From NCBI GenBank assembly GCA_024734495.1, contig JALMQS010000677.1, positions 353,278 through 417,277 of the forward strand: 64,000 nucleotides of DNA, read 5' to 3'. The number at the start of each line of letters is the position of its first letter. Within the stretch, counting starts at the first letter, position 1. The notes under the pieces were generated by a model. That model saw only the letters and a program-made list of their open reading frames with translations, was not told the DNA's origin and ran no database searches. Shown piece after piece: positions 7,189 to 52,442 of this stretch. Made by a program: the position numbers and the translations under genes. This stretch comes from Forficula auricularia (lineage: Eukaryota; Arthropoda; Insecta; Dermaptera; Forficulidae).

Positions 7189-9610
7189 CAGGGTGTCCCA
7201 AAAGTCAAGGATCAAACGTGAACACGAGATAGGTGAGTTCAGGATTGTACAAAATAAAAAAAAATTTAAATTAAACTCTTTTACTTTTCGAGTTATGGGC
7301 ATTTTTTTGAAAACCGTGAAAATCGCTACGCTGCTCTAAATATTTGAATGCTGTGGCTACGAATTTTCATATTTTATAATTCTAATTTTTGTTACGGAAT
7401 CCTGAATAATACTGCTATCGATCACAAAACAGAAAATAACTAAGAGTATTATACTTTTTGAGAGAAAAAAATATTTTAATATTTTTGTCAGATTCATGTG
7501 TCAAAAAATTTTAATCAGCTAACTTTGACTCTTGATATCTTAAAAAAAAACTGTCAAACAATAATGGCAAATTATCTAAAAAATTGAAGCATTGAATCAA
7601 GATTTCAAAATGGTATAAAACATTCCACTTTTTTAAAAAACAAAAAATAATATTTGCATTTTTATGCGAAATAAACTAATTTCGAAACACAATTCGAAAT
7701 TGGCTAAAGGGTAGAGTTTAACATGAAAACTAATTTAATTTATTAAAAAATTTTTGTGACTATTCCAAAATGGTAGATTTTTGCAAAAAAAAATGTTAAA
7801 AAAAAGCAAGGGAAGATTCACAATTCTTGGACAGATGAAAGTACCTGCAGGCAAGGCGGTTATTTAAATCTACATAAATTACATTCTTGGAGTAGAGAAA
7901 ATCCTCATATAATGAGGGCAAATCGGTCCCAGTACCAATTTAAAATTAATTTGTGGACCGGAATTTTAAACGGCAAAATCATTGGACCATTTGAGTCACA
8001 AAACAGAAAATAACTAAGAGTATTATACTTTTTGAGAAAAAAAAAATATATTTTTGTCAGATTCATGTGTCAAAAAATTTTAATCAGCTAAATTTGACTC
8101 TTGATATCTTAAAAAAAAAACTGTGTCAAACAATAATGGCAAATTATCTAAAAAATTGAAGCATTTAAGAGATTCAAGATTTCAAAACATTCCACTTTTT
8201 TAAAAAACAAAAAATAAATGCATTTTTATGCGAAAGAAACTAATTTCAAAACACAATTTGTAATTGTCTAAAGGGTAGAATTTAACATGAAAACTAATTT
8301 GATTTATTAAAATATTTTTATTCAATTAATGATTTTAGAAAAAAATCTTAAATAGTTGAATAAAATATTTATTTATTCAATTAAAGTAAATGTCCGCCAA
8401 GAGCGCGGCACATTTTACATCGTCTAAGAAAGGACCGCCTCACGAGTCTTGCATATCTTCGACAATTTATTTCTTCTTTTGCTTCAGAGATTCTTTGTTT
8501 AAGTTGGCCTAGGTTATCTATTCGCTTTGAATAAACTTTTTCTTTTAAGCATCCCCAATAAAAGAAGCCAAGAGGATTCAAGTCCGGAGAATGTGGCGGC
8601 CAGAAAATTGGTCCAAGTCGTCCAATCCATCTTTCTTTGTACTTTTCATTGAGGTAATTTCGAACAGGACGAGCATGATGCGAAGGGCATCCATCATTTT
8701 GAAACCACATTGCTAATCTCATATTGAGTGGTACATCTTCTAACAAATTTGGTAAATGATTTTGCAGAAAATCCAAATAGTTGTCTCCATTTAAAGTTTC
8801 AGGAAACTCAAATGGTCCACTTATTTTGCCGTTTAAAATTCCGGTCCACAAATTAATTTTAAATTGGTACTGGGACCGATTTGCCCTCATTATATGAGGA
8901 TTTTCTCTACTCCAAGAATGTAATTTATGTAGATTTAAATAACCGCCTTGCCTGCAGGTACTTTCATCTGTCCAAGAATTGTGAATCTTCCCTTGCTTTT
9001 TTTTAACATTTTTTTTGCAAAAATCTACCATTTTGGAATAGTCACAAAAATTTTTTAATAAATTAAATTAGTTTTCATGTTAAACTCTACCCTTTAGCCA
9101 ATTTCGAATTGTGTTTCGAAATTAGTTTATTTCGCATAAAAATGCAAATATTATTTTTTTGTTTTTTAAAAAAGTGGAATGTTTTATACCATTTTGAAAT
9201 CTTGATTCAATGCTTCAATTTTTTAGATAATTTGCCATTATTGTTTGACAGTTTTTTTTTAAGATATCAAGAGTCAAAGTTAGCTGATTAAAATTTTTTG
9301 ACACATGAATCTGACAAAAATATTAAAATATTTTTTCTCTCAAAAAGTATAATACTCTTAGTTATTTTCTGTTTTGTGATCAATAGCAGTATTATTCAGG
9401 ATTCCGTAACAAAAATTAGAATTATAAAATATGAAAATTCGTAGCCACAGCATTCAAATATTTAGAGCAGCGTAGCGATTTTCACGGTTTTCAAAAAAAT
9501 GCCCATAACTCGAAAAGTAAAAGAGTTTAATTTAAAAATTTTTATTTTGTTCAATCCTGAACTCACCTATCTCGTGTTCACGTTTGATCCTTGACTTTTG
9601 GGACACCCTG
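7189..9610. mobile_element. Rearranged mariner-like transposon with very long inverted repeats
   Basis: Ends are perfect inverted copies beginning CAGGGTGTCCCAAAAGTC, flanked by TA (7187-7188, 9611-9612). The inverted homology extends about 800 bp inward on each side and includes the start of the transposase frame (7770-7995 is an inverted copy of 8810-9031). The 5' UTR occurs a third time, directly repeated at about 8000-8310. The left end was therefore built from a copy of the right end plus an extra partial copy. The whole unit lies in the putative first intron of zinc-finger gene 1. Confidence 0.85.
8381..9031 (-). pseudogene. Mariner-family transposase, catalytic part only, third Asp replaced by Gly
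   Basis: 216 codons covering the DDD/E catalytic region of a Tc1/mariner transposase; full-length mariner transposases are about 340 residues, so the N-terminal helix-turn-helix domain is missing. First catalytic Asp in WTDEST, second in FQNDGCPSHHARP, then WPPHSPDLNPLGFFYWG. In relatives the residue after NPL is usually Asp; here it is Gly. Spacing from the second Asp to this position is 41, suggesting the DD41D group. Without this residue the enzyme should be inactive (inference from the family). Confidence 0.8.
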
Positions 9611-9897: not shown

Positions 9898-11402
9898 GTA
9901 AGTTCATTTATTTGATTAACAACCTTGGGATAATTTTTCAAATTCAAATTTAGATGAAATAGGCCTCTCTCCTTTTGTCCTCCATCTCGGAGACCATTAG
10001 GAAATTTGAGAGATAAAACTTTTTAAGATTTTATTTCTTTTAATTTTCATTGATTAATGAATGCAAAATTATAATTCCTTACCAAACTACAAACTACTTA
10101 TCTAATGATACTATTAAATGATTTCACAATCAAAAATAACAATAATAATCCTGAGAGGGTGAAATCTTCGGACATATATATTTAATTATCCACGAAAATC
10201 TTTGATTAAATTAACCTTGAAAGTTTCTTTTTTGCCTAGAGTAGCAGAATTTTTATAAAATAAAAGAGTGTATTTTCTGCTAGAAAAATAATCTTTATAA
10301 ATAAATTTAAAAAATCATTTTTCCAGCAGAAGACACACTCTTTTATTGTCTCCTATAATTTAAATGGACCTTCTTATTCATCTAACGCCCTTCGCTCACG
10401 GGGCGTAATGCGTAAGAGATGAGTTATCGGAGAAATTTTTTTACTCTACTCGACTCATAATATTCTAACGACTTTCAAGCCCTCCAATTCATTCACATTT
10501 CTTTTTTCAAAATTAAAAGATAAAGATCCTCTATTTAATCAAAATCGATTGCTTAAATTGCAAAGGATTATATATTGGGCAGACAAAACAATATTTAAAG
10601 TCTACGAGCACAAATATTCGATTAACAAAAGGTCAGATAGATTGCTTTTAAAATATTTATAATTTTTTTAATTTTCCAATCTCATCCCCAAGACAATCTG
10701 TATCATTGTATATTTTTAAAATATTTATTTGTTTATAGTTTTCTCTCATAATTTTTTAGAAGCAACTTAACTAGAAACATTTCATTACCATCAATAAAGG
10801 GAGAATTTCTCCTGAAATGTTTGGCTTTTTAATAAAAAACGTTTTCGATCGTTTTACAAACGAGGTTTTTCATTTGAATTTTACAACAAAACAATCAATA
10901 AACTTTAACATAGTTACATATTTGTATTAAACGCTAAATAAATAAATTATACTTCTCTCTTTTGCAATTCTTTTGTCGCAACAATCAGCCGACAATGAAA
11001 ATTCCTTTCTAAGTACGGATGCACCCATTTTCTCAGAGTCCTTCTTTTCACCCGTCGATACCAATGAAACATAACAAGAGAAGTTCCTCATTACTTGAAT
11101 CGCTGCTTAAAACTGCTCATTCTGAAAACTCGAAGAAGAGAGGTTTGTACCTTCTCGCTTGTACACTCCGAGATGACTGCAATAAAAATCGCCCCTTGAG
11201 CCTAACCATTTTATTAAAATATAAGCGATATGAAGCCCGGAGTTGTTCTTTAAAATTTTTGAAAAAAATCACAATTCTTTAAAAATAAAATACTCAATTG
11301 TTGTATTAATTATAAAAATACCAAAACTACAATAAACTTTATTGCTCTATATTGAATTTCAATCTCTAAATTCATCTCATCAATACATTTATTTTTTTCC
11401 AG
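9898..11402 (+). other. Intron between the two supported exons of zinc-finger gene 1
   Basis: GT at 9898 and AG at 11401-11402. AT-rich with scattered short repeats, including a small inverted pair near 10258-10290/10316-10347. An open stretch of 87 codons at 11019-11282 has no homologous motif. A possible extra exon inside it (11037-11142) has a length that breaks the frame, so I do not call it. Confidence 0.55.
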
Positions 11403-12578
11403 ATAATCGATCTAAGAACGAAACTGAAGATTATTTCTGTGAAGAATGTTTATCTGGATTCCTATCATTGTCTGATTTCGAAAGCCATATACAGGAAGGC
11501 CATTCAGAAGAAGTACTCTTCACAAGTCATCTGAGCGATCGGAAATACGGTGCTGAAATTAAATCGGAACCCCTTATTGACATGATTCCTCAGAGCGAGA
11601 GGGCTTCTAAACTGACCTTACATAATCGACACAATGCCGGCAAACGGTCTTTACAATGTCCTAACGATCAAGAAAAATTGAAATCAAAGCAAACTAATCA
11701 ATGTTTGGGAACTCATTCTAATAACAAGCACACAGACCAAAAGCCTTTAGTCTGTGATCAATGCGAGAAGGGTTTCTCACAAAAGGGTGACCTCAAAAAG
11801 CATTTATGTATTCATACAGGTGAAAAGCCTTTCGTCTGTGATCACTGCGAGAAGGGTTTTTCACAAAAATCTAGTTTCAAAACGCATTTACTAATTCATA
11901 CGGGCCAAAAGCCTTTCGTCTGTGATCAATGCGAGAAGGGTTTCTCAAATAAGGGCAATTTCAATAGGCATTTACTAATTCATAGAGGCGAAAAGCCTTA
12001 CGTCTGTGATCAATGCGAGAAGGGTTTTTCACAAAAATCTAGTCTCAAAACGCATTTACTAATTCATACGGGCCAAAAGCTTTTCGTCTGTGATCAATGC
12101 GAGAAGGATTTCTCAGATAAGAGTAATTTCAATAAACATTTGCTAATTCATACGGGCGAAAAACCATTCGTCTGTGATCACTGCGAGAAGGGTTTTTCAC
12201 AAAAATCTAGTCTCAAAACGCATTTACGTATTCATACGGGCGAAAAGCCTTTCGTCTGTGATCAATGCAAGAAGTGTTTCTCAAATAAGGGTGATCTCAA
12301 AAAGCATTTACGTATTCATACGGGCGAAAAGCCTTTCGTCTGTGATCAATGCAAGAAGTGTTTCTCAAATAAGGGTGATCTCAAAAAGCATTTACGTATT
12401 CATACGGGCGAAAAACCTTTCGTCTGTGATCAATGCAAGAAGGGTTTCTCACAAAAGTGTAATCTCAAAAGCGCATTTACTTATTCATACGGGCGAAAAG
12501 CCTTTCGTCTGTGATCACTGCGAGAAGGGTTTTTCAGAAAAAGGATCTCTCAAAAGGCATATGAAAATCCACTCCTAG
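11403..12578 (+). CDS. Zinc-finger gene 1, last exon: about 11 C2H2 fingers, one frameshift
   Basis: Likely nuclear DNA-binding protein. After the acceptor at 11402 the frame reads an N-terminal finger ([10 protein letters not shown]...SHIQEGH), a linker of about 75 residues with one degenerate finger, then ten tandem C2H2 fingers of 28 residues joined by [10 protein letters not shown] linkers. The eighth and seventh fingers are near-identical ([14 protein letters not shown]). At about 12467-12471 one extra base shifts the frame within the ninth finger; the last finger and [10 protein letters not shown] with stop TAG (12576-12578) are in the new frame. The shift could be a sequencing error, a polymorphism or true decay. 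Otherwise the array is in good order. Confidence 0.75.
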
Positions 12579-16629: not shown

Positions 16630-17095
16630 TCATATATAAATTAGGGCCTATCAGGGTGGGGGTGGGGTAAGAAGGCAGCTGCCTCAATCATTCAATACGT
16701 TAATGTTGAAGTGCTCAAAGTTTCTGGGAAATAAATCAATGTTATAATTTATTAAATATAAAATACCATTATTTTTATTTACTTGTCCACACGTACCTGT
16801 GAATATTTTTATTGCTGCTACTATCTGCACCAAAAGAAGAAACTTTTAACTAAAACAAAAAATTACCTGGCAGCGCTCGTTCCGCCAGGCGCTTTCTCTA
16901 AAATAAAAGGTTTAATAATAATAACAGGGAGTCTCAATAGAGAGGACAACATAGAACTGGACCATGGAAAATTTTTAAAGTCTGTATTTTTTGTATGGGT
17001 CTACTCCCTAGCTTCATTATACAGTCACGAGCAAAGAAATGGAATCATCTGCCTTGCGAGTTATTAAATGTAATTTTCATTCTCAAATATAATAA
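16630..17095. other. Non-coding DNA
   Basis: Contains a G-rich patch (16650-16670) and AT-rich sequence. A 94-codon plus frame (16783-17067) has no recognised motif and is not called a gene. Confidence 0.45.
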
Positions 17096-17214
17096 TAATT
17101 ATATAATATAAGATTGGAGTAATTTTTGGAGACGGACTGTAAAGTGAATTAAGTGGATATCGATGAGGCAGTCCAAAAAAAGAAGAAGATAATTTACACT
17201 ATCTTTTTATTCAT

Positions 17215-17258
17215 AAAACCGACGTTTCGGAGGCTATTCCCTCCTTCTTCAGGGTTTT
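17215..17258 (-). ncRNA. Hammerhead ribozyme, left arm
   Basis: Minus strand: helix I AAAACC pairs fully with GGTTTT; core CTGAAGA (fits CUGANGA); one A; stem II GGAGG/CCTCC with loop GAATAG; core GAAA; then ACGTC with cleavage expected after C of the GUC triplet. Stem III is just ACGT, self-complementary, so two molecules would be needed to form a 4-bp stem. Confidence 0.75.
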
Positions 17259-17414
17259 GAAAAGTCAGTGAAGGAAATCCAATGCGACATTCCCCTCTGT
17301 CTCCTCTTTCAGTGGCAGGAACAATACAATATATTGTATTTCATTCTCAGCAGAATTATAATCTAGTATTACTTACGAGGGAATGTCGCATTAGATTTCC
17401 TTCACTGTCTTTTC

Positions 17415-17458
17415 AAAACCCTGAAGAAGGAGGGAATAGCCTCCGAAACGTCGGTTTT
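17415..17458 (+). ncRNA. Hammerhead ribozyme, right arm
   Basis: Inverted duplicate of 17215-17258. Helix I 17415-17420 with 17453-17458; CTGAAGA 17421-17427; stem II 17429-17433 with 17440-17444; GAAA 17445-17448; cleavage predicted after C17452. All conserved core positions are present except the one-base gap before stem II, which is shared by the other motifs in this window. Confidence 0.75.
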
Positions 17459-17570
17459 ATGAATAAAAAGATAGTGTAAATTATCTTCTTCTTTTTTGGA
17501 CTTCCTCATCGATATCCACTAATTATATAATATATTTCCATTAGGTTTTCATTCTACATTTAATTTATGC

Positions 17571-17878
17571 CGCCTCTACACTATGAGCCAACTTGGGCCA
17601 ATTCAAGCCAACGCCAATGTGTAGAGGGGGGTTGGCTTGTATTGGTCATTGGTTGACGCTGGCGATGGTTGGTCTTCGGAGCGGTTTTTTCGATATATGA
17701 AAGAGGGCCACTGTTATGCAACGAAAGTGGCCAGTGGCTAGGTGTCGTTCCACAAGGCCATAGACATTGGCCCAACTCTTGGACCACTGAGTGGAGTCAC
17801 CGTCAAATTAACTCGTTTTACTGGTGGCCAACATGGTCAACATGTTTGGCTCACGTTGGGCCATAGTGTAGAGGGCCC
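17571..17878. mobile_element. MITE with GGCCAA-rich interior
   Basis: Ends CCTCTACACTATG...GCCAA and its inverted counterpart (ttgggccatagtgtagagg) mark a unit of about 308 bp. The interior repeats TTGGCC/GGCCAA-like words many times in both orientations. Short overlapping frames on both strands follow from this composition and are not genes. Superfamily not determined; target duplication unclear. Confidence 0.7.
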
Positions 17879-17884
17879 ATTAAA

Positions 17885-20339: not shown

Positions 20340-21617
20340 GAATTTCTTATCCTAGTGATCACAGGTAAATAACTTCTATGTAGTGTGAATCAGCATATGT
20401 GTTTTAAGCTTGGACTTTTGAGAGAATTTTTTACCGCAGTGATCACAGCCGAATAACTTCTCCCCAGTGTGAATCAGCATATGTGTTTTAAGGTTGGACT
20501 TTAGTGAGAATTTCTTCTCGCAGTGATCACAGCCGAATAACTTCTCCCCAGTGTGAATCAGCATATGTGTTTTGAGGTGATCCTTTCGCGAAGAATTTCT
20601 TATCGCAGTGATCACAGCCGAATAACTTCTCCCCAGTGTGAATCAGCATATGTGTTTTAAGCGTGGACTTTAGTGAGAATTTCTTCTCGCAATGATCACA
20701 GCCGAATAACTTCTCCCCAGTGTGAATCAGCATATGTGTTTTAAGCGTGGACTTTAGTGAGAATTTCTTCTCGCAGTGATCACAGCCGAATAACTTCTCC
20801 CCAGTGTGAATCAGCATATGTGTTTTAAGCGTGGACTTTTGTGAGAATTTCTTACCGCAGTGATCACAGCCGAATAACTTCTCCCCAGTGTGGGACAATA
20901 AATGTGTTTTGAGATTTCCCTTTAGTAAGAATTTCTTATCGCAGTGATCACAGCCGAATAACTTCTCCCCAGTGTGAATCAGCATATGTGTTTTAAGGTT
21001 GGACTTTAGTGAGAATTTTTTATCGCAGTGATCACAGCCAAATAACTTCTCCCCAGTGTGAATCAGCATATGTGTTTTGAGGTGATCCTTTCGTGAAGAA
21101 TTTCTTATCGCAGTGATCACAGCCGAATAACTTCTCCCCAGTGTGAATCAGCATATGTGTTTTAAGCGTGGACTTTTGTGAGAATTTTTTCTCACAGTGA
21201 TCACAGCTGAATATCTTCTCTGTACTAGAATGAGTCACAAAATGTCGATTCAAGGAACTTTTGGTAGTATATTTGTTTGGACATTTGCTACATATGAAAG
21301 GTCCTATCTTTGAAGAACTCTGAATATCTAACGTAATTTCTGTTTTTTTCTTAAATGATACTTCAGTTAAATTACAATTAATTTCGTTTTGATGAGTCAT
21401 GATTATAGGACGTTGAAATTTCCTATTACTATTTAAAGGTAGATCGGCTGCATGCTGGTCACGTATATGACTCCCGTATTAAGATATTTCGACAAAAGCA
21501 CAAACGCACTCTTCGAAGTAATAATCCTACACAGTTTTGTATTTGTCTATACTTGTAGTGGGGCAGTCGGCGCCTAAAAAAAATAAATAAAATGATATTT
21601 TTAATACAAAGTGAATT
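20340..21617 (-). pseudogene. ZNF-2: C2H2 zinc-finger pseudogene, about 11 fingers, two identical frameshifts
   Basis: After an acceptor-like ttttttag (about 21581), the frame runs ADCPTTSIDKYK and a damaged N-terminal finger with an in-frame TAA (21479-21481). From ATG 21400 it continues MTHQNEINCNLTEVSF, a finger CSKCPNKYTTKSSLNRH, then fingers of the form GEKLFGCDHCDKKF...KTHMLIHT. One extra base in a finger at about 21095 shifts the frame. The same extra base in the same finger context occurs again at about 20590, 505 bp away. The last unit contains further stops (near 20345-20390). No single frame can encode the array. Confidence 0.85.
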
Positions 21618-29612: not shown

Positions 29613-32304
29613 TTATCCAATAATTTTAAAAAATGTTTCCCCAAATTCCTTAAAAACAATTGATCTATGTCTAGTTCTGCCACTATGTTCATTATACATA
29701 ATCTTACACACATCATAATAATAAACAACTGAGTTAACAATAAATGATTCATCAATAGCCAGGACAGGTTGTACCTTAATTTTTTTAATAAGTCTAGTCA
29801 GTATAGTGATAAGTGGTTTCATTGCATTATCATATGCTCCCCCCCCCACGCAATTATACCATAGTTAATTATACTCTCAAACAGAGCCTGATAAATTATC
29901 CTCATAGCCTTTGGATCCAATATTGCACATAACTTATGTAAAACAAAATTTATATATCTGGTTTTCTTGATAATTTGCTTTATGTGATGGTTCCATCTCA
30001 TATGACAATCTATATAGATACCCAAATATTTACAATAGTCAACTCTTTTTATTTCTTTCCTATCAATATACAATTTAATATCAACAGGTATACTATCTTG
30101 ATAACAGCCAAAAGTCATGAAAGTCGTTTTATCAGTATTAAGTGACAGTTGATTCACTTTCATCCATGTACCAAGCCTGCTCAGCCAACCTGTCATCACT
30201 GTAGCTACCTCTTCCCAAGTTTTTCCCGAACACAAGACAGCCGTGTCATCAGCATATGACACCAAAGAATTTTCAGGCAAAATATTAAAGATGTCATTAA
30301 TATAGACAATGAAAAGTAGGGGGCCAAGAGTAGTACCCTGAGGAACTCCAGTTCTTATTACATGAGCCCTACTATAGCAATTATTAGATTTAACTGTTTG
30401 ACTTCTATTTGTCAAATAACTCTTTAGTAGGTCATTAGTTACACCTCTTATATCATATGAATCAAGTTTAGACAATAGTATTTCATGGTTCACCGTATCG
30501 AATGCTTTCGCAAGATCTAAGAAAGCAATTGCAGTTGGACTATCAACATCAATGTTGCTATATATAAAGTTTGTCACAAAAGCCAGTGCATCATTAGTAC
30601 CCCTACCCTTCACGAATCCAAACTGGGAATCAGAGAGAACATTACACATACTTAAAAAATTAGTAAGTTTATTATAAACAATTTTTTCAAATACCTTAGC
30701 TATGTTTGAAATAAGAGATATCGGTCTATAATTAGTAGGTACATGTTTATCACCATTTTTGTATACAGGAATGACTTCAGCTGCTTTTAAGGCCTTGGGC
30801 CAATTTCCTTCAGATATGCACAGATTAAATATGTGTTCCAGTGGTCCACTTATATCTCTAACTAAGCATTTTAAGACTTTACTATTTATACCATCCACCC
30901 CACCTGCTCTTACTTTTAACTCCAATATAATACCTAGTTATTGGACTAAAGAAAATTGTTTTATCATTAATCTTAACTATGATGGATACATTTACATCTG
31001 GTTGATTTATTTTAGCAGCAAGATTAGTACCAATATTACCAAAAAAGGATGCAAAATTATTTGCAATTTCTACATTATTATAAATTTTTTTATCTCTATC
31101 AATTAAGTATTCAATATCATTATTTAGTTTATTATTTTTTCCCAGTTTATTATTCACATATTGCCATAGTTTTCTACAATTATTTTGGTAACCTCTAACC
31201 AAGTTATTCTCAAATAATCTCTTAGCTAGCCTTATGAGCCTATTCAATATATTACAATATTTTTTATACTCATCTCTCAGGGTGTTGTTACTTTTATTCA
31301 ATTGCCATGTTTTATACAGCAATTCCTTTGTATTACATGACTTGATCAAACCAGATGTAATCCAACCCTTCCTCGGTTTATTTTTACTTTTATCCTTTTT
31401 CATAGATTTTGCTTTATCAGTCAGAATTTGAATTTTCTTTATCAATGCCTCAATCGCATCATCAGACCCACTTATTTCTCCCAATGTCTGCCAATCAGTC
31501 TGAGCACTGTAACTCTTCAATTTGTTGTAATTAATGGTCCCATGATTTTTTTTCGATTTATATATCTTTGACAAGCTAACGGACAAAAAAATTGGATAAT
31601 GATCCGTGAAGACATTGGTGTATGTGTATGACTTACAATTATAGACTGACCTAACAAACACATTATCAACACAAGAGCCCCCATTTATATTAGGTCTAGT
31701 AACATCATTAAAATATGGCAAATAACCCATATCCAGAAAAGAATTCAAAAACTTCAGTGAGCCCATCGGATTGCATTACATTTACGTTGAAATCGCCAGC
31801 AATGAGATGATTCCTAAACCCCTTGTTAACATCAAGGTAATTTTTTAAATTGAAAACAAATTCCTCCTTAGAAACATCATGACATCTATAAACTCCAGTT
31901 ATTTTAAATACATTATTCTTAACTCCAATTGTAACAGACATAAATTTGCAACAACCAAAATTTTCACATGATATAGACTGATTTAAGTCCTTTTTAGCAT
32001 ATATAACAACACCATCAGCCCTATTGACCTTACTGTCATTATAATAGACATTGTAATTATTAAGATTATAAAATTCCACACAAGCAACATCCCAAGTTTA
32101 AGTGCACACTATGATGTCCGGCTTGACCAAAAGTCTATCAATAAACACTTCAAAATTTTCAAAATTCGAATTTAAACTCCTTACATTTAAGTGGAGAATA
32201 GTAAGATCTTCTTGATTAAAAATTTGATTTAGTGATGTTAAATCTTGTAGTTTTTCTTCCAGCTTACAAGTTTCATTATTAATATCAATATCAATAACAG
32301 CCAT
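29613..32304 (-). pseudogene. LINE 2 ORF2: endonuclease and reverse transcriptase, four breaks
   Basis: Endonuclease starts LTILHLNVRSLNSNFENFEV and has GDFNVNVMQSDG; the expected ETW motif reads T-stop-TW (TAA at 32098-32100), so the catalytic Glu codon itself became a stop. Further breaks: near 31750-31790, near 30900-30925, and at the G run 29837-29845. RT motifs present: YRPISLISNIAKVFEKI, FVKGRGTNDALAF, AIAFLDLAKAFDTV, GVPQGTTLGPLLFIVYINDI, LVSYADDTAVL, CKYLGIYID. No RNase H. All breaks are single-base changes or short indels, so decay is recent. Confidence 0.85.
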
Positions 32305-33603: not shown

Positions 33604-36340
33604 GGCGCCGACTGCCCCACTACAAGTATAGACAAATACAAAAGTGTGGACGATTATTACTACGAAGAGTGCGTTTGTGGTTTTGTCGAAATATCTTAAT
33701 ACGAGAGTCATATACGTGACCAGCATGCAGCCGATATACCCTTAAATAGTAAAAGGCAATTTCAACGTCCTATAATCATGACTCATCAAAACGAAATTCA
33801 TTGTAATTTAACTGAAGTATCATTTATGAAAAAAACAGAAAATACGATAGATATTCAGAGCTCTTCAAAGATAGGACCTTTCGCATGTAGCAAATGTCCA
33901 AACAAAAATAATACCAAAAACTCCTTGAATAGACATTTTGTGACTCATTCTCGTAGAGAGAAGTTATTCAGCTGTGATCAGTGCGAGAAAAAATTCTCAC
34001 AAAAGTCCAAGCTTAAAACACATATGCTGATTCACACTGGGGAGAAGTTATTCGGCTGTGATCATTGCAAGAAGAAATTCTTACTAAAGGGAAATCTCAA
34101 AATACATTTATTGACCCACACTGGAGAGAAGTTATTCGGCTGTGATCACTGCGATAAGAAATTCTTACTAAAGGGAAATCTCAAAACACATTTATTGTCC
34201 CACACTGGGGAGAAGTTATTCGGCTGTGATCACTGCGAGAAAAAATTCTCACAAAAGTCCATACTTAAAAGACATATAATGATTCACACTGGGGAGAAGT
34301 TATTCGGCTGTGATCACTGCGATAAGAAATTCTTACAAAAGGGAAATCTCAAAACACATTTATTGTCCCACACTATGGAGAAGTTATTCGGCTGTGATCA
34401 CTGCGATAAGAAATTCTTACAAAAGGGAAATCTCAAAACACATTTATTGTCCCACACTGGGGAGAAGTTATTCGGCTGTGATCACTGCGAGAAAAAATTC
34501 TTACAAAAGTCCATACTTAAAAGACATATAATGATTCACACTGGGGAGAAGTTATTCGGCTGTGATCACTGCGATAAGAAATTCTTACTAAAGGGAAATC
34601 TCAAAACACATTTATTGTCCCACACTGGGGAGAAGTTATTCGGCTGTGATCACTGCGATAAGAAATTCTCACGAAAGGGAAATCTCAAAACACATTTATT
34701 GTCCCACACTGGGGAGAAGTTATTCGCCTGTTATCACTGCGAGAAAAAATTCTCACAAAAGTCCATACTTAAAACACATATGCTGATTCACACTGGGGAA
34801 AAGTTATTCGGCTGTGATCAGTGCGAGAAAAAATTCTCACAAAAGTCCATACTTAAAAGACATATAATGATTCACACTGGGGAGAAGTTATTCGGCTGTG
34901 ATCACTGCGATAAGAAATTCTTACTAAAGGGAAATCTCAAAACACATTTATTGTCCCACACTATGGAGAAGTTATTCGGCTGTGATCACTGCGATAAGAA
35001 ATTCTTACAAAAGGGAAATCTCAAAACACATTTATTGTCCCACACTGGGGAGAAGTTATTCGGCTGTGATCACTGCGAGAAAAAATTCTTACAAAAGTCC
35101 ATACTTAAAAGACATATAATGATTCACACTGGGGAGAAGTTATTCGGCTGTGATCACTGCGATAAGAAATTCTTACTAAAGGGAAATCTCAAAACACATT
35201 TATTGTCCCACACTGGGGAGAAGTTATTCGGCTGTGATCACTGCGATAAGAAATTCTCACGAAAGGGAAATCTCAAAACACATTTATTGTCCCACACTGG
35301 GGAGAAGTTATTCGCCTGTTATCACTGCGAGAAAAAATTCTCACAAAAGTCCAAGCTTAAAAGACACATGCTGATTCACACTGGGGAGAAGTTATTCGGC
35401 TGTGATCACTGCGGTAAAAAATTCTCTCAAAAGTCCACGCTTAAAACACATATGCTGATTCACACTGGGGAGAAGTTATTCGGCTGTGATCACTGCGATA
35501 AGAAATTCTTACAAAAGGGAAATCTCAAAACTCATTTATTGTCTCACACTGGGGAGAAGTTATTTTTACTGCGAGAAAAATTTTTCACAAAAGTCCAAGG
35601 TTAAAAGACACATGCTGATTCACACTGGGGAGAAGTTATTCGGCTGTGATAACTGCGATAAAAATTTCTCACAAAAGTCCACGCTTAAAACACATATGCT
35701 GATTCACACTGGTGAGAAGTTTTTCGGCTGTGATCATTGCGAGAAAAAATTCTCACTAAAGGGAAATCTCAAAACACATTTATTGTCCCACACTGGGGAG
35801 AAGTTATTCGGCTGTGATCACTGCGGTAAAAAATTCTCACAAAAGTCCACGCTTAAAACACATATGCTGATTCACACTGGGGAGAAGTTATTCGGCTGTG
35901 ATCACTGCGATAAGAAATTCTTACAAAAGGGAAATCTCAAAACACATTTATTGTCCCACACTGGGGAGAAGTTATTCGGCTGTGATCATTGCGAGAAGAA
36001 ATTCTCACAAAAGTCCAACCTTAAAACACATATGCTGATTCACACTGGGGAAAAGTTATTCGGCTGTGATCATTGCAAGAAGAAATTCTCACTAAAGTCC
36101 AACCTCAAAAGACATTTATGGTCCCACACTGGGGAGAAGTTACTCGGCTGTGATCACTGCTAGAAAAAATTCTCACAAAAGTCCATACTTAAAAGACATA
36201 TAATGATTCACACTGGGGAGAAGTTATTCGTCTGTGATCACTGCAAGAAGAAATTCTCACGAAAATCCACGCTTAAAACACATATGCTGATTCACACTAG
36301 ATAGAAGTTATTCAGCTGTGATCACTAGGAAAAGAAATTC
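33604..36340 (+). pseudogene. ZNF-3: C2H2 zinc-finger pseudogene, about 28 fingers
   Basis: Acceptor ttttttag at 33603, then a frame homologous to exon 3 of zinc-finger gene 1: ADCPTTSIDKYKSVDDYYYEEC...; the first Cys of the N-terminal finger is Tyr and a TAA (33697-33699) interrupts it. From ATG 33778 a 608-codon frame holds one CSKCPNKNNTKNSLNRH finger and about 19 GEKLFGCDHC-type fingers. A deletion of part of one finger near 35565 shifts the frame; a second frame carries about 7 more fingers to a TAG at 36161. Two more damaged fingers follow. Translation from 33778 alone could still yield a 608-residue finger protein, so a residual function cannot be excluded. Confidence 0.85.
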
Positions 36341-36584: not shown

Positions 36585-39224
36585 TTAAATTATGTCCACT
36601 GCCATAGCATCTTCCGGTAATGGCTGAATCGGAACTTCAGTTATCAGTGGCTTATGATAACTAAAATATGATACGAAAAGTTTTGTATTAACAGCGTTGA
36701 GATATCGTGCAAATACAGCATCTATGGTAGTGCCATGTCGTGTTGTCGAAATCAGAGGATTATTATTCATGGCTAGATTCAATTCATTTTGGAGGAAATC
36801 AATAAGTGGACGAGCATCTTCACGGGAAAAATTGACGTTGAAGTCTCCACTTAAAATTACCGGTAACTTGTCTTCTCCTCTACCAAGATATTCTCCTTCA
36901 GCTGTTGTATATGGCCATAATATTCTTTTCAGGAAATGAATGATGTCGTCCATTTTTTGATTTGGAGTAATGTAAATTACCATCAAAACAATTATGTTGC
37001 CATCCTCCATTTTGCATTCAGCTGCACAAAACTCACCAACTGATGTCACTGTTAAACTTGCCAATTCCGCCTGTTTTACAGTCATATCAATGTTTGGAGT
37101 AATGATATTGGTAGTGTCGTGCATATTCTGATAAATGGCAACTCCTCCAGCTCGAACGTTTGATCGCTTATATTGTATTATGCAATTGAAATTTGGTATA
37201 CTAATCGACTCTTCATTGGCTAACCAGGTTTCATTTAAAAGTAAAACATTCGATTTTTGCATAATTGGATCAATGAGATCAATGGAATGAGCACGGAGAC
37301 TTTGACAGTTAAAAGTATATATTGTCAACCCTCTCCTTTGATTAATAAAATCTAACAGATCATTGGTGATAGTTTGTAACCGATTAAGCGAGAGTCTACG
37401 GAATTCTTCTTGAAGACTATTTATAGCTGTGGATGCTCTTCTGCCATGATAGAAAGTGTTATCATTGTCTTTTGTTGTAATGTACAAACCTTGAAGACTA
37501 GTCACCCGCGTCAATGCAACATACACTAATGACAATTGATGTTTTTTATCATATTCATAAACAATTTCAGGGTATGTACTTCCCTGAGATTTATGAATCG
37601 TAGTTGCGCAAGCGCAAACTAAAGGTAGATGTGATCGTTTAATATTTATCGTTTTGTTGTTATTAAGTGGAATAGTTGCAGATCTTCTTCCTATCGGAAC
37701 AGCAGTTGTACTAATTTGATGAGAAGCTGCATGTCCAGCGACTTTTTTCTTTATTTTTTGAACAATTTTTGGTGAGTCTGGGAAATCAAGCCATACAACA
37801 TTCACATCTCCTTCATCATTAAATTCAAGATGAACTAATTTTACAACAGCTCCATTTGCTAAGCCATCTGACACATCGATGTTTGTTGTAATCATATAAA
37901 AAACATTCGGCACAAATACGGTTTCATAAGGCAATCCTCCAGTATCAATGAGCGACATTTTATATAATTTTTGACGTACAGAAGCTGTTTGTTCTGCTGA
38001 AGTACATCCAACAAATACGTCTTTAGCAATTGAAGTAGTTTTATTTTGAGCAGCACTTAAAATTCTGTTATTATATCTTGTGACAGCCTCGTTTGTATTG
38101 AATAATCTGATTCCATGTGGACATTTTACTTCGGCCTCTTGAGTTGTTACAAATCGCGATTCCAATAAAATTAATTCGCGATCGTCGAGTTGTTGACCAT
38201 TCCCAATTTTTGTTAATATTGAAGAAAACTCTTGGTTTGCCTGGCGCATAACTTGATCTAATTCATAAAATTTGAATCCACGCCATAAAATAGGTCCAAC
38301 AATTTTCTGCTTCTGCTGTTTGTAAATTGGAGTAGCTCGTACTGGTGGTAACTGGCTTAGATCTCCAATCAAAATAACATCTAAACCACCAAAATTAGTT
38401 TTGAAATCTCCAGTAATCTGCTTCAATCTAGAGTCAATCTAAAGAAGTAATTCAGCACTAATCATACTTATTTCATCAATGATTAACACTTTGACGTATT
38501 TGAATAGTGCTCTATATTGATGTGCTACTTCAGTGCTTAGTGGAAGTAATCTCGACAAAGATATTTTTAGGGCAGTATGTACGGTAGTCCCGTCAATGGC
38601 AACAGCAGCTTTGACAGTTGAAGCACAAGCGATGTACTAGTTACAGCATCCATCATTCTCATTATATCGATTATAAATTTCCATGATAAGTTTTATGACG
38701 AAAGTCTTACCACATCCAGCTGGACCCGTAAAAAACATTTGAAATGGACTACGGTTTGGAGTTAATAGATTTGAAATGACATGTAGCAAGAGCCCTCTTT
38801 GCTTATCATTTGCCATTCTCATCAATTCGTAAAACTCTATATTTGGCATTAAATTTTCTCGTTTTTTAGATATAGGCCCAAGTTTATCAAGTACAGCTAG
38901 ACGAAGATCACTATTCACATCGGAAAGAGGATTGTTATATAAATTTTGAAATGAATTTGGTTCAGATGCGATGTTAGCAACATCTTGTACTTCAGTTTCA
39001 TCATTGAAACCATCTTCTCGGCATAAATTTCGAGAAATTTCAATTACTTTCTGGATATCCAAATTAGATTCAAATTCTTTTCGATTATTTAAAATTTCAT
39101 TTTCATTCCTATTATATATATCAATAAATTTCATTTCAGCGAGTATTTCCGCATCTTCATTTCGGAAAGGAATATGTAACGTAACCATTTCACGTTTAGC
39201 CGAGTTCAAGTTCGCGTGCCACAT
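36585..39224 (-). pseudogene. Helentron (Helitron) helicase-endonuclease, 5'-truncated
   Basis: Reading from 39224: a region ending MFFTGPAGCGKTFVIKL (Walker A of a PIF1-type SF1 helicase), an in-frame TAG (38637-38639), YIACASTVKAAVAIDG, IIDEISM (Walker B), a second TAG (38439-38441), then 613 open codons with DVILIGDLSQLPPV, ELDQVMRQ, CATTIHKSQGSTYPEI and LVYVALTRV. The C-terminal about 240 residues form an endonuclease (NETWLANEE, LSGDFNVNFS). Fusion of helicase and endonuclease defines the Helentron branch. The N-terminal Rep/HUH nuclease needed for rolling-circle transposition is absent, so the copy is inactive. Confidence 0.85.
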
Positions 39225-47046: not shown

Positions 47047-47700
47047 TACGATCATATAAGGGACTGCAAAGGGCCCCTAAATTTACATATCTGCTGCTAG
47101 ATAAAATCCCAGAGGCACAGTGTTACCATATGTTTACTGATAGATATTATACCAGTATACCTTTAGCAGAAGAATTAATAAAATTGAAATGCCACTTGAC
47201 TGGAACTATAAAAGCTAACAGGAAAGGTATCCCGACTTTTATGAAAAAACCTAAGTTTTCGGATAAAAAAACTATACTTTGTAAAAAAAGGAAAAATCAT
47301 GTTCTTAGCCTGGAAAGACAAAAGGTTTGTATCACTTTTGAGTACTTGGAATGATAGATTCAAAAAGAATTTTTCGAGGGGTACGGAAGTAAATATTAGA
47401 AAGCCTAATGTAGTTGTAAGTTACACAAATTCTATGGGTGGTGTAGATCGAGCTGATCATTATGCATCTACCTATTGTTTTTTGAGAAAGTCTCTTAAAT
47501 GGTGGAGAAAAATGTATTTTTGGGGCCTGGAAGTGGCTGTAATTAAATCATATATCTTATATAAAATTAAAAAAACAAAACAAAACAAAAAACCATTGAC
47601 ACATTTGAAATATGTTAAACTGTTAGTCGATCAACTGATTAATAATTTTCGACAAGAAAAATCTAGAGCCTCTACGTCATCATCTGAGATCAGGTTAAAT
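47047..47700 (+). pseudogene. piggyBac transposase, C-terminal half, first segment
   Basis: Frame from about 47060: KIPEAQCYHMFTDRYYTSIPLAEELIK, TGTIKANRKGIP. A frame break at the A run near 47287-47293, then FLAWKDKRFVSLLSTW, VVSYTNSMGGVDRADHY, FLRKSLKWWRKMYFWGLEVAV, KLLVDQLINNFRQEK. DRYYTS, TGT and MGGVDRAD are piggyBac landmarks; the Asp in FTDRYY and in GVDRAD are among the catalytic region residues. At 47700 a LINE has inserted; the protein continues at 52443. Confidence 0.85.
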
Positions 47701-47851
47701 TCATTCATTCATTCATTTCTATCTTCGCATGGTCACCATCCTTGCGGAAATTCAACCACTTTTTTTGTGTAATGACAATAGCCACAATAAGATGTACTGA
47801 GCTATAGCCAACTTAATTTGCCTTCAAATAAATATTGTCCTATCCATCCTT

Positions 47852-50800
47852 TCATATCCTTATATTTATATTTGAAATAAAATTTAACAGGGCATGATTT
47901 ATTTTAATATTTTTTTCTTTTAAAATTTGATTAATATTATAAGGCGTCACTAGATTTTCCTCCCCCAAAATCCGCAACATATCAACCCGGGGTTCTCTAT
48001 AGTCGGGACAAATAAATAAAATATGATTTATATCTACAGGTTGGCTTTCCTGACAATGGCATATTTCTTCAGGCGCCATTTTCAATCGATTTAAATGTTT
48101 TGGTAAAACATTATGTCCTGTTCTCAATCTTGACAACACTACTATTTGTTTTCTAGATAAATTTTGATTGTGGAACCATGGCTTATTATCGACTAATTCT
48201 TGAATATTAAACAAATTGTAACCTTTAGTGAGTGAAGATTGGTTCCAATAATTTTGCCAGTCATGAATTAAATTAGATTTGATTATCTGTTTTAAATCAT
48301 TCGCTGGGAAGTTCGGAATATTAATTTCTTGTAGTTTCCCAGATAATTTAGCCAGAGAATCTGCAGTATCATTTCCCGAAACACCTGTATGAGATGGTAT
48401 CCAAACGAACTCAACTAATTTATTATGGAATTTTAATGAGTCTATTTGATTTAAAATTTTGAAAATAATGGGATTTACTTTACTATTTCTATTAATTGTT
48501 TGAATATGTTTTACTGTGCTTAATGAATCGGTTATAATTAAAATTTTTGTGTGATCAATCTTTTCTAAATAGGTCGTTGCTTTGAGGATTGCCATTGCTT
48601 CCGCCGAAAAGATCGAAGTATTAGGGTGCATTTTATAAATTCCACATTTTTTTATTTCCGGAATAAAAAATGCACATCCTGTATATTCAGATGTTTTGGA
48701 ACCATCTGTATAGACTTTTAAAAAATTTGTCCATTTAGATAGATGAATATTAATGATATCCTTTGCAATTTGAGGTCTCATTTTCAAATTTTGCTCACTA
48801 GTTAGCTGCATATCAATATTAGGTTTAAAATATACTAATTTGTATGGAAAGTCGAAAATTGGCGAGATCTCCATTTTTTCAATCTTATCCTCGTATTGTT
48901 TCAATTTTATGTGACTTAGAATTATAGGAGGGGTAGGCTTATTTGATGGATTTATAACTAGTAAACTTGAATAATCTTCTATTACATTTTTTATGGGATT
49001 ATTTTTAAACTTCATATGTTTCAAATAAAAATTATTTGCTAGAAATTTTCTTCTCAAGTCTAGTGGGGGTTCACCACATTCAATTTGTAAGGAATTTGTG
49101 GGAGTAGATGGCATTGAGCCGATAATGATCCTAAGAGCAGAATATTGAATTTGATCAATCTTCTTTAAAAGATTTTTACTTGCTGATGCATATAGAAAAG
49201 ATCCATAATCAATTGTAGATCTTATTAATCCTTTATATATATTCAGCATGCTCGAGGGATGAGAACCCCACCGAGTACCCGCTACACATCTTAGAATATT
49301 CAAAAATTTTTCACACCTTCGCACTAAATTATTTATGTGGTCATCCCATTTTAAGTTATCTTCGAGTATGAGACCTAAAAATTTTTGTTTCTTCTTTTGC
49401 GGGATTATATTATTTTTTATTTTAATTTGGATAACACTATTTGTTACATGTTTAGAAAAAAGAACTAATGCAGACTTTCCAGTATTTATATTTATTCCCA
49501 AACCATCCATATGCTCAACGATGTTGTTAATAGCTGGTTGCAGGTGTCTGGTGAAACCCATTACGGAACTTGAACTTTTGTAAATCACTATATCATCCGC
49601 ATACTGGAGGATTGAAATTGAGGGGGGAATGATCGATTGAATATCAATAATATAAATAATAAAAAGAAGAGGACTTAATACACTGCCTTGAGGAGTTCCT
49701 AAAGATGTTGTTCTTGATGATGACACTTCTTGACCATATTGAACTCGTATAACCCTATCTGTTAATAAAGAATTTATAAATGTAATTGTTTTATTTGGAA
49801 TTCCTAGTTCAACTAATTTATGGCACAAAATATTTGGAATAACTGAATCATATGCAGCTTCTAGATCCAAAAAGACGGCACTATTTTGTTCGTTTTTTTG
49901 AAATGAAATGTTTAAATCGGTTAAGAATGTCGTAAGATTATCTATTGTCGATTTTTCTTTCCTGAATCCAAATTGTGTGTTTGGGATTATTTTTCTATTT
50001 TCTAAATAATGTTCTAGACGATTCTTAATTACTCTTTCTACTATTTTCAATACTGTTGATGTTAGGGCTATCGGTCTATATGATTCAGCTTTTCCTGGAT
50101 TTTTACCTGCTTTAAGAATAGGGATAACTGATTTTAATGAATTTATAAATTTCTTCATATGAATTAGACATACCAAGCTTCTGTGACACAGTCACTCTAA
50201 ACAGATCCCAATTAGCATTTTTTAGTTTCCATGGAGATCGAGGAGTGATAATATGATTTTTATTATGAGAATCAAATGCTATTTGAAATAAAATTGGAAC
50301 ATGGTCACTACCTAAAGAATAATTCAAAGTTTTCCAATTTCCACGAGCCAATAGGTCAGAAGAACATATAGTGATGTCTATTGCTGAAGGAATGCAATGT
50401 GGCCTAAAATATGTCTTTGAACCATCATTTGCAATGGTCAAATTCCCATCCTGGACAGCCTTATATAGTTCCAATCCTATGGAATCCGTTCTACGGTCAC
50501 CCCACGCTGGATGATGTGCATTAAAATCGCCACACACAATTAAGGGACCAGAGATCTGGTCAAATAGATCCAACCATTCCTCCCGAGACACATATGTCAA
50601 AGGGGGAGAGTACAAACTGATTAAAGATACCAGCTCTTTACCAATCCGAACTCTAACCCCCACCACTTCCATAAATTTAGCATTAGAATTTTGATTTATT
50701 CTTAATTCAAGATTTTGAAATTGTATAGATTTTTTGATTAATATCGCAACACCTCCTCCTATTCCAGACCTATCGTGTCTTACCATATTGTACCCTCTAA

Positions 50801-50939
50801 ATCTAATATGATGATTTGAATTTAACCATGTTTCCGCTATGGCTACTATATCAATATTATTTTGATAAATAAAATTTTCTACCGCCAATCTATTACTAAA
50901 TAAGGATCTTATATTAATTTGAAGTATTGTTAAAGCCAT
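47852..50939 (-). pseudogene. LINE 3 ORF2: endonuclease, reverse transcriptase, RNase H; linker deleted
   Basis: Endonuclease (50939-50112): LQINIRSLFSNRLAV, VAIAETWLNSNHH, IVCGDFNAHHPAWGDRR, LGSDHVPILFQ, all catalytic motifs present. RT (frame 50176-47852): YRPIALTSTVLKIVERV, TQFGFRKEKSTIDNL, AVFLDLEAAYDSV, GTPQGSVLSPLLFIIYII, ILQYADDIVIYKS, FLGLILEDNLKWDDH. RNase H: VYTDGSKTSEYTGCAF, FSAEAMAILKATTYL, ITDSLSTVKH, SHTGVSGNDTADSLAKL. Between endonuclease and RT only about 30 residues remain where relatives have about 200, and the frame shifts there (50112-50176). The start at 50939 overlaps ORF1 by 26 bp. Confidence 0.85.
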
Positions 50940-52224
50940 TATTTCCTTTGAATAATTCCTTTAACATTGAGATGATAGTATTTACAGTCTGAACAATCTT
51001 TGGGTCGGCTAAACTACTAATGTGGGATTCTAGTTTACATAAAACTTCTTCTAAATTCTCATCATTCTCCCTTTTTCCTCTTTCATTCTGTGGTATTTTT
51101 TGATCATTATATTCCGCTTGCCCTTTTTTGAAAAAGAGAGCTTCTTCTACTTCTTCACTATTATAATTTTTCTTATCAGAGTTCAATTTCTGTCTTTTTC
51201 TTATATTATTGGATTGGAAATTATTTTCACTAAACTTATCTACTTTAACCAGTTTTGATTCTCCCCTCCTAGATGGACCATCCATTATTTTTGAGAATAA
51301 ATTTTGTTTTTTTGATTGCCTAACTTTTTTAACCGCTTCGGGTAATAATACATTTTCCTTTTCCGCCATAATCTTCGCCTCCTTTTGAATAGAGCGCTCT
51401 TGGCACTCTTGAGAAGTAGACAAATGTTTCCCTTTGCAAAATAAACAAACCGGAGAATCCTTCGCCGGACATACATTTAAATCATGATTTTCTAGACACG
51501 CTGGACATCTCTTGACTTTATCCCTACAACTATTTACTCCATGCCCATAACGAAGGCACCTCGTGCACTGTATTGGAAGGGGAATATATGCTTGCACCGG
51601 GAGTGAAAAGGAATATAAGAACACTCTCTCCGGCAATTTAGTCGTTCTGAATGTAATTAATACTGATAATGATGGGACATAATCAATTTTCCCCTCCTCA
51701 TTCCTTACTTTTCTATTTAATCTTCTTACTTGTTCTATTGGATATTGGGAAATTAGATTCTCTTTAATTTCCTTATCTGACATATCTTTAGGCACATTTC
51801 TAACTACTCCCTTTTTTGTGATGGCGCCAAAAGGGACGTATGTCTTAAGATTGTAATCTTTGAAGTCAATGTCTAGGAATCTGTTCGCCTGGCTAGCCAC
51901 ACTAAAAGTAGCTAAAATTGAATTTCTTGAAATTCTTTTAATTTCAGTAGGTTGTGGGAACTTATTTTTATGGATTATTCTGCCTAACGATAGAGGGTGT
52001 AAATTACCTAAATTTCCATTTACGCTAGAAATAATTATTTTGAATGGAGGTAAATCCATAATACTAAACCTAATCTTAGGTCTCTCATCAGATATTATTG
52101 TCTTATTACTACTAGATTCAGAACTATCGATGGATGAACTCTCATGATGGATAGATGTGATTGAAGGGACTGCGGGGGAAAAGGGGATTTGGGCCATATC
52201 CCAGTCCCCCTCCTCCGAACCCAT
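50914..52224 (-). CDS. LINE 3 ORF1: Gag-like protein with zinc knuckles
   Basis: 436 codons, intact. Ser-rich N-terminus, a central RNA-binding-like domain (IISSVNGNLGNLHPLSLGR, RISRNSILATFSVASQANRF, YVPFGAITKKGVVRNVP), then CTRCLRYGHGVNSC, CPACLENHDLNVC and CLFCKGKHLSTSQEC, a set of CCHC knuckles, and a basic, Asn/Lys-rich C-terminus. Matches the usual ORF1 of I-type LINEs, an RNA chaperone. It ends within ORF2. Confidence 0.85.
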   Translation of the reverse strand: MGSEEGDWDMAQIPFSPAVPSITSIHHESSSIDSSESSSNKTIISDERPKIRFSIMDLPPFKIIISSVNGNLGNLHPLSLGRIIHKNKFPQPTEIKRISRNSILATFSVASQANRFLDIDFKDYNLKTYVPFGAITKKGVVRNVPKDMSDKEIKENLISQYPIEQVRRLNRKVRNEEGKIDYVPSLSVLITFRTTKLPERVFLYSFSLPVQAYIPLPIQCTRCLRYGHGVNSCRDKVKRCPACLENHDLNVCPAKDSPVCLFCKGKHLSTSQECQERSIQKEAKIMAEKENVLLPEAVKKVRQSKKQNLFSKIMDGPSRRGESKLVKVDKFSENNFQSNNIRKRQKLNSDKKNYNSEEVEEALFFKKGQAEYNDQKIPQNERGKRENDENLEEVLCKLESHISSLADPKIVQTVNTIISMLKELFKGNNGFNNTSN

Positions 52225-52442
52225 CAGGAAGGATATTAGATGGATAGGGCTTACCTTATAAGTTTGTATTTAAAAATTTTTATTTAATAAAAAAACAAAT
52301 ATTATCTTCTCCGATCCTTTTACCAATATTTATTTTGTTTTGAAGGCAAATATATTCCAAAATTTATAAATTTTTCGCTTAGAGACAAAGAAAACGATCT
52401 TGTTTATCCAACAATAGAATCAACAATCAGATCAGGTTAAAT

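Follow-up and report, generated by a model that had tools for sequence, protein, structure and literature searches.

In Forficula auricularia, within the 64,000 nucleotides that make up the window (the whole stretch of DNA that was analysed), there lies a 409-bp insert (17111–17519) whose two halves are inverted with respect to one another and carry a hammerhead-like motif on each strand. The question that this locus raises is whether the inverted unit is itself a mobile RNA, as an earlier note proposed, or whether it was assembled by the machinery of a known kind of retroelement. We consider, with a probability of about 85%, that it is an ORF-less Penelope-like element (PLE) insertion made from two pseudo-LTR (pLTR) RNAs of ~250 nt, each with a minimal PLE-type hammerhead, arranged head to head. 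This figure applies to its identity as a PLE insertion; one alternative discussed below, self-priming, is a variant inside that identity.

Anatomy of the insert

The insert is flanked by identical 15-mers (17096–17110 and 17520–17534), and its inverted arms agree at 98% (17176–17294 with 17379–17497) and 97% (17152–17180 with 17492–17520), both much as the earlier note had described them. Arm pairing spans 17152–17294 and 17379–17520; an alignment that takes in a few extra bases has 148 columns, comprising 143 matches, 3 mismatches and 2 gap columns. In simulated flanks with fixed boundaries identical 15-mers arose in 2 of 200,000 trials, and when the boundaries were given a few bases of freedom, in 7 of 20,000 for an AT-rich source and in 0 of 20,000 for wider flanks. 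The same note regarded the insert as a strict palindrome, which it is not: 84 nt of non-complementary sequence separate the long arms, and a tail of 41 nt is present at the left end only with no counterpart in the right arm. It is therefore an inverted pair with an asymmetric end. Its features are as follows:

17096–17110, no strand: left copy of the target-site duplication (TSD), 15 bp, TAATTATATAATATA, from flank comparison
17111–17151, minus: tail, 41 nt, a 3' extension of the left (minus-sense) pLTR only, being absent from the right arm; also judged from other copies
17111–17367, minus: left pLTR plus tail, with the longer 5' part, from the alignment of copies (the 5' end near 17367 was read from it by eye and is uncertain by a few nt)
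17216–17258, minus: minimal hammerhead motif, C3 at 17252 and C17 (cleavage site) at 17221, from the motif pattern
17368–17378, no strand: centre junction, ~10 nt of filler separating the pLTR 5' ends, from the alignment of copies, boundaries by eye
17379–17519, plus: right pLTR, 5'-truncated and without tail, from the arm and copy alignments
17415–17458, plus: minimal hammerhead motif, from the motif pattern
17520–17534, no strand: right copy of the TSD, 15 bp (base 17520 may be counted to the arm instead)

No frame of at least 120 aa overlaps the insert, which is therefore at most a non-autonomous PLE derivative; an ORF for reverse transcriptase (RT) with a GIY-YIG endonuclease was likewise not found within it. 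An 18-bp perfect palindrome at 17323–17340 (8 of 20,000 random sequences contained one as good) was considered as a junction palindrome of the PLE type and rejected, since the alignment of copies places it inside the left pLTR, ~30 nt from the junction.

The tail contains CAG/TCCGTCTCC (within 17111–17151), a possible splice acceptor. On the minus strand the stretch GTAAAT...TTTACAG (17137–17197) could be a 61-nt intron, removal of which gives MNKKIVPSPKITPI. Among the 100 tail places listed from the genome the CAG is constant and the two bases before it vary (TA, AA, TT, AT and others). A minus-strand reading of MNKKIV, the 61-nt intron and PSPKITPI would fit the start of a PLE ORF with an intron; being a guess only, it was set aside.

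Copies, target sites and junctions

Copies were sought in the 1.06-Gb assembly containing the window. The whole insert gave 1117 first-look candidates, 40 of which were scored, yielding 101 matches, and the tail pattern (at most 2 mismatches) was found at 3118 places, its reversed control at 0. The earlier note had recommended this search and would have counted an absence of other copies against its proposal; the family is in fact very large. As 100 of the 3118 tail places were listed and the surroundings of a minority were read, "thousands of inverted pairs" is an extrapolation.

Thirty loci were read, with ~1.5 kb of flank for most. They are the best matches to the whole insert of the window, so that the sample favours copies built like the window copy. 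The full tail is present on exactly one side in 23 of the 30 and on both sides in none; L042 has it on neither side, L034 has no clear full tail on one side, and L031 and L035–L038 were left out as the same places on the other strand. Both ends are available for 22 of the 23 oriented loci, L019 having no right end and thus being omitted from the TSD count. These 22 correspond to 18 independent sites (19 with L019), because L027–L029 are alike and L014–L016 have a common target and flank. The latter three (L014 is the window copy) share more than 1 kb of flank, with alignments of 1.8–2.0 kb including the insert, from which it follows that this insertion multiplied together with its surroundings. 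L027, L028 and L029, on contigs C826, C804 and C148, represent the same insertion with equal match scores and ends, owing either to a recent duplication or to redundant assembly.

TSDs of at least 8 bp occur at 16 of the 18 independent sites as against 18 of 306 flank pairs drawn from different copies. At a threshold of at least 10 bp the figures are 15 of 18 (10–15 bp in these 15) against 3 of 306, and at 11 bp or more, 12 of 18 against 0 of 306. A convincing TSD is lacking at two sites, L026 (none) and L032 (5 bp), and the 8 bp of L024 are within reach of the mismatched pairs. Duplications of variable length at AT-rich targets, a mark by which PLEs are recognized, are thus present. In many copies the flank beside the tail-less arm starts with TTA or TTAATT, which is how the pLTR continues beyond the arm, and this suggests that priming may proceed by microhomology.

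For the analysis of arm ends 21 copies, each selected for a full tail on one side, were mapped onto the tail-side arm of the window copy (246 nt, sense). The tail-side arm ends at 243–246 of this reference in 21/21. The other arm ends at 202–219 in 20/21, the remaining one being L019 at 174 (169 with stricter scoring), so that there is a second cluster of 3' ends near TTAATT. At the 19 independent sites it is the tail-side arm which is 5'-truncated in seven and the other arm in nine, and both are nearly complete in three (L021, L023 and L043). Under stricter scoring the truncation points range from 20 to 97 with 11 of 16 between 39 and 63, that is, they differ and are nevertheless clustered; the sites being independent, random truncation does not predict this clustering. 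The breakpoints at 15–24 in the first scoring (L015, L017, L019), and the tail-side starts of L030, L032 and L039, partly cross a near-palindromic stretch of the pLTR; on stricter rescoring the breakpoint of L017 remains at 20, its arms overlap, and the value is unsure. Shorter partner arms, of ~30 nt on contig C726 and ~80 nt on C431, extend this series.

The centre strings of 20 aligned copies are all different, and the filler varies too. Since L014–L016 are one insertion and yet have different centres, mere difference between centres carries little weight, and the better evidence is the breakpoint together with the truncated side. As both the junctions and the truncated arm differ from site to site, the inversion seems to be made anew at each insertion and not to be inherited as a palindrome. 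The idea of a minimal mobile RNA element consequently holds in part: the TSDs and copies attest to a mobile insertion, while the differing breakpoints and truncated sides do not agree with the palindrome as the mobile unit. The two arms of one copy differ by a mean of 6.0% (15 copies) and arms of different copies by 7.0% (210 pairs), i.e. the former are little closer.

The hammerhead motif and its predicted folding

The pattern CTGANGA-N4..30-GAAACGT matches twice in the window, both times in these arms, and never in 100 shuffles. The two matches are one sequence present in both arms and are therefore not independent. On the plus strand helix I is AAAACC/GGUUUU (17415–17420/17453–17458), C3 lies at 17421, CUGAAGA comes next after helix I, stem II is GGAGG/CCUCC (17429–17433/17440–17444) with the loop GAAUAG and is followed by GAA, ACGU occupies 17448–17451, and C17 is at 17452. 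Helix I, CTGAAGA, the 5-bp stem II and this cleavage site are all as first reported. The description of each ribozyme as complete requires amendment: the motif is there on both strands, with an extra A at 17428, directly before stem II, and a helix III of 2 bp (A-U and C-G) with zero loop bases. In the standard hammerhead numbering these pairs are A15.1-U16.1 and C15.2-G16.2. Without a loop, helix III cannot be closed by one molecule.

A comparison with covariance models, also recommended in the earlier note, gave no Rfam family at the gathering threshold in the window and no match to the Rfam hammerhead models even at E 10 in 17000–17700. We take this result, from a scan run without a positive control, as a limit of models which expect a helix III, and not as absence of the motif. 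A minimal hammerhead motif of the PLE type is present in the pLTR, its catalysis being putative.

Compared with the majority over 36 arms, the hammerhead core has 0.050 differences and the rest of the arm 0.056 (stems 0.046, loop 0.028), and 9829 of 20,000 random column sets were as conserved as the core. The motif CTGANGA...GAAACGTH is retained in 26 of the 36. A core that diverges as often as the rest of the arm is as expected for copies decaying after insertion. Elsewhere, the hammerhead pattern matched 13 loci in viral contigs; these we regard as chance matches, since none combines a stem II of at least 5 bp with a helix I of at least 3 bp, and a version of the pattern that admits either A or T as the extra nucleotide had 0 matches. 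An exact piece had 0 matches in the genome_contigs collection.

The transcript of the whole insert is predicted to form one long hairpin (-255.1 kcal/mol, z -23.9) in which the hammerhead core of either strand pairs with the opposite arm (mean P 0.999) and stem II has P 0.0 as printed. When the sense arm is folded alone, the predicted probability is 0.892 (plus) or 0.997 (minus) for stem II and 0.669 (plus) or 0.035 (minus) for helix I. Each strand has one sense motif only. The full transcript is thus predicted to bury both ribozymes, and the folding, so far as such predictions go, speaks against the supposition that transcripts of either strand would self-cleave.

Reviews mention that minimal type I hammerheads of PLEs possibly act as dimers (PMC6155905, PMC7761336, PMC6466107). 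The self-complementary ACGU could form a joint helix III of 4 bp between two RNAs, and the double hammerhead has a calculated energy of -26.1 kcal/mol. Two monomers come to 2 x -13.6 kcal/mol and the dimer MFE is another fold at -29.6; the double hammerhead thus gains nothing over separate monomers and is not the most stable dimer, so that the energies provide no argument for dimer activity.

The cleavage site corresponds to position 136 of the pLTR reference, and 21/21 tail-side arms run unbroken through it. The inserted template was therefore uncut, or was re-joined.

Penelope-like machinery and a proposed origin of the inverted pair

The link to Penelope-type hammerheads, which the earlier note drew, is upheld by published PLE anatomy as well as by the motif. 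In Adineta vaga, PLEs have inverted pLTRs, mostly head to head, one of which may bear a 31-bp tail at its 3' end, and TSDs of 8–10 bp at AT-rich targets (PMC3846280); among the peculiarities of PLEs named in a curation guide are pLTR inversion and short extensions at the 3' end (PMC8969392). Pen2a_Av and its relatives from the same source resemble the present insert in their ~200-bp inverted pLTRs, arranged head to head with the tail on one 3' end, in their AT-rich targets, in TSDs of ~8–15 bp and in being truncated, and differ from it in that the copies read here are ORF-less pairs. The text of PMC3846280 on the Adineta vaga PLEs mentions hammerheads 0 times. Minimal type I hammerheads without helix III are described from PLE pLTRs and from thousands of dispersed copies (PMC7761336, PMC6155905). 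As cited in the reviews, those of Cervera and de la Pena 2014 and Lunse et al. 2017 share with ours CUGANGA, a short stem II, GAAAC-GUC and practically no helix III; the extra A between A9 and stem II sets ours apart. Inverted pLTRs, tail and TSD being published PLE anatomy, the claim of something new beside the retrozymes is not supported. This is a new family of an already known kind, both motif and arrangement being known for PLEs, and no new kind of RNA element. Our literature search found no description of a large family in which inverted pLTR pairs carry hammerheads and have no ORF; as the search lay outside the primary PLE-hammerhead papers, we do not claim the family as unreported.

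The host genome possesses PLE genes in quantity. The GIY-YIG search returned 3423 candidates, and of the 150 that were scored all 150 exceeded the cut-off. At one locus (L074, G000:C563:409000-418900) there are tandem PLE frames of 858 aa spaced ~2.9 kb apart, having the RT motif YVDD and the C-terminal stretch GVYSLKCKDCEAIYVGKTERN, in the domain order of PLEs. The repeat between them includes CTGATGA-T-GAAGAC-CAA-GTCTTC-GAAAC-TATA-GTC. This is a hammerhead motif in which the same extra position is occupied and a UAUA loop closes a helix III of 2 bp, while helix I has no more than 2 clear bp beside the core. Motifs of this class (stem II of at least 4 bp and one extra nucleotide) were found within ~1.5 kb on either side of GIY-YIG matches at 8 of 30 loci (L046, L047, L054, L060, L061, L068, L069 and L073), always on the GIY-YIG strand, so that further PLE-linked motifs in the host also have a nucleotide at the extra position. 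In the remaining 22 loci such a motif may lie farther from the GIY-YIG match. The eight are of three kinds, six being one family, and in L073 the motif is part of a further inverted pair with 85% similarity over 62 nt. A sister family is represented at L085 (250–371) by two arms lying head to head; their hammerhead motif (GGAGGAAAAATCCTCC stem II) is related, and farther along comes CAGTCCGTCTC as in the tail.

An autonomous PLE with this pLTR was not found in our incomplete survey of the host genome. Ten PLE stretches (L074–L083) gave no convincing match to it (one at E 0.087), and among 41 GIY-linked loci only L084 and, partially at 85%, L073/L085 match. L084 (contig C4), where a tail and a GIY-YIG match lie 2.3 kb apart, was rejected as the partner, since it proved to be a disrupted copy that adjoins a piece of a different PLE family.

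How might two pLTR copies come to lie head to head? The PLE protein of the anole, from the Poseidon element PAc, acts on AT-rich DNA, where it cuts and extends the two strands, and the authors of that study conclude that hammerhead cleavage is unnecessary for insertion in vitro (PMC11167929). PAc likewise inserts at AT-rich targets and has its hammerhead at the pLTR/ORF start; it is autonomous and forms direct tandems, whereas the copies here are ORF-less inverted pairs. In the most probable course of events, a pLTR-containing RNA would be bound by a PLE protein (reverse transcriptase with GIY-YIG nuclease) supplied in trans, and both strands of an AT-rich target would be cut with a stagger. 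Reverse transcription would then start near the RNA 3' end on each side, at the tail end on one and near TTAATT on the other, and the two cDNAs would meet at their 5' ends and be joined with truncation of one and some filler. Ribozyme cleavage may be dispensable for such an insertion step. Within the PLE identity we favour two-ended target-primed reverse transcription of this sort at somewhat better than even odds, with a small part of the probability left open; it does not by itself explain why synthesis starts at the tail on one side and not on the other, nor the lack of a full tail on either side of L042.

Its chief competitor is self-priming, already proposed for PLEs (PMC3846280), in which the second arm arises when the first cDNA, folded back at its 5' end, serves as its own template. 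One arm complete and the other 5'-truncated, as found at 16 of the 19 independent sites, is what it would give, and the clustered truncation points could mark a preferred fold-back site. Such a process should also copy the tail onto the second arm, which none of the 30 loci shows in full on both sides, and it does not account for the second 3'-end cluster; we give it about half the weight of two-ended priming. The slightly smaller divergence of arms within copies is allowed by both models.

The remaining explanations lie outside the PLE insertion. A metazoan non-LTR retrozyme, i.e. a circular RNA derived from direct repeats in tandem that carry type I hammerheads, would suit the size class and the hammerhead type, and retrozymes may use PLE machinery (PMC7229834, PMC7761336). 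They resemble our insert in being small, non-coding and probably mobilised in trans, and differ in their direct tandem repeats, canonical hammerheads and circular RNAs (PMC7229834). No direct repeats, tandem or otherwise, were found in 16900–17750, helix III is without a loop, and the copies that were mapped form head-to-head pairs whose ends bear no relation to the cleavage site, which makes this origin improbable.

Still less do we credit the palindromic element of the original proposal, in which the 409-bp inverted unit is transcribed, self-cleaves on either strand, circularises and re-inserts. The motif on both strands and the many copies with TSDs are as it would have them, two RNAs could pair ACGU to ACGU, and the clustering of truncation points is what partial inheritance could give. 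It is disfavoured by the junctions and sides of truncation that change between sites, and the units are not permuted at the cleavage site; the hairpin predicted for the full transcript, the energies of the double hammerhead and a core no more conserved than the rest of the arm likewise count against it. Least probable is a foldback or MITE-type DNA transposon with a fortuitous hammerhead likeness, which would share the inverted arms, TSD and high copy number, since the outer ends are not matching terminal inverted repeats (one side has the tail), the arms are truncated at their inner ends (to ~30 nt on C726), TSD length varies, and the motif class recurs beside GIY-YIG genes.

Returning to the PLE insertion, we would extend it to the family only tentatively and at less than even odds: an ORF-less PLE pLTR family of thousands of copies, mostly fresh head-to-head pairs, in which the inserted template must have had its hammerhead uncut or re-ligated. 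A family of this size is useful in that its many readable junctions and TSDs can show how PLEs join two cDNAs, and it could show whether the hammerhead takes part in PLE insertion. Should this wider reading be true, the family would document on a large scale, in a natural genome, how a GIY-YIG reverse transcriptase carries out two-ended (convergent) target-primed reverse transcription. Judging by the copies read, the RNA that was inserted had not remained cut at the hammerhead site, a point of relevance to the function of PLE hammerheads.

The window contains a number of other features. Directly to the right of the insert is a second inverted-repeat element (17564–17883; arms 17564–17601/17846–17883, 79% complementary), which is MITE-like. 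Long C2H2 zinc-finger frames form three clusters, at 11336–12578 (Pfam), 20527–21478 and 33700–36163 (the last two read from translations). Among the frames scanned, non-LTR retrotransposon frames occur on the minus strand at 47852–52269, with RT, RNase H and endonuclease domains, and at 29819–32097, with RT. A protein search with an RT from the window gave jockey-like matches, and those naming an organism, among the 120 of 608 matches listed, were from insects. There are also transposon fragments at 8381–9067 (minus, DDE_3) and 47245–47772 (plus, DDE_Tnp_1_7, piggyBac-like), and a Helitron-like region at 36585–38438 (minus) with a PIF1 helicase and a weak exo/endonuclease match.
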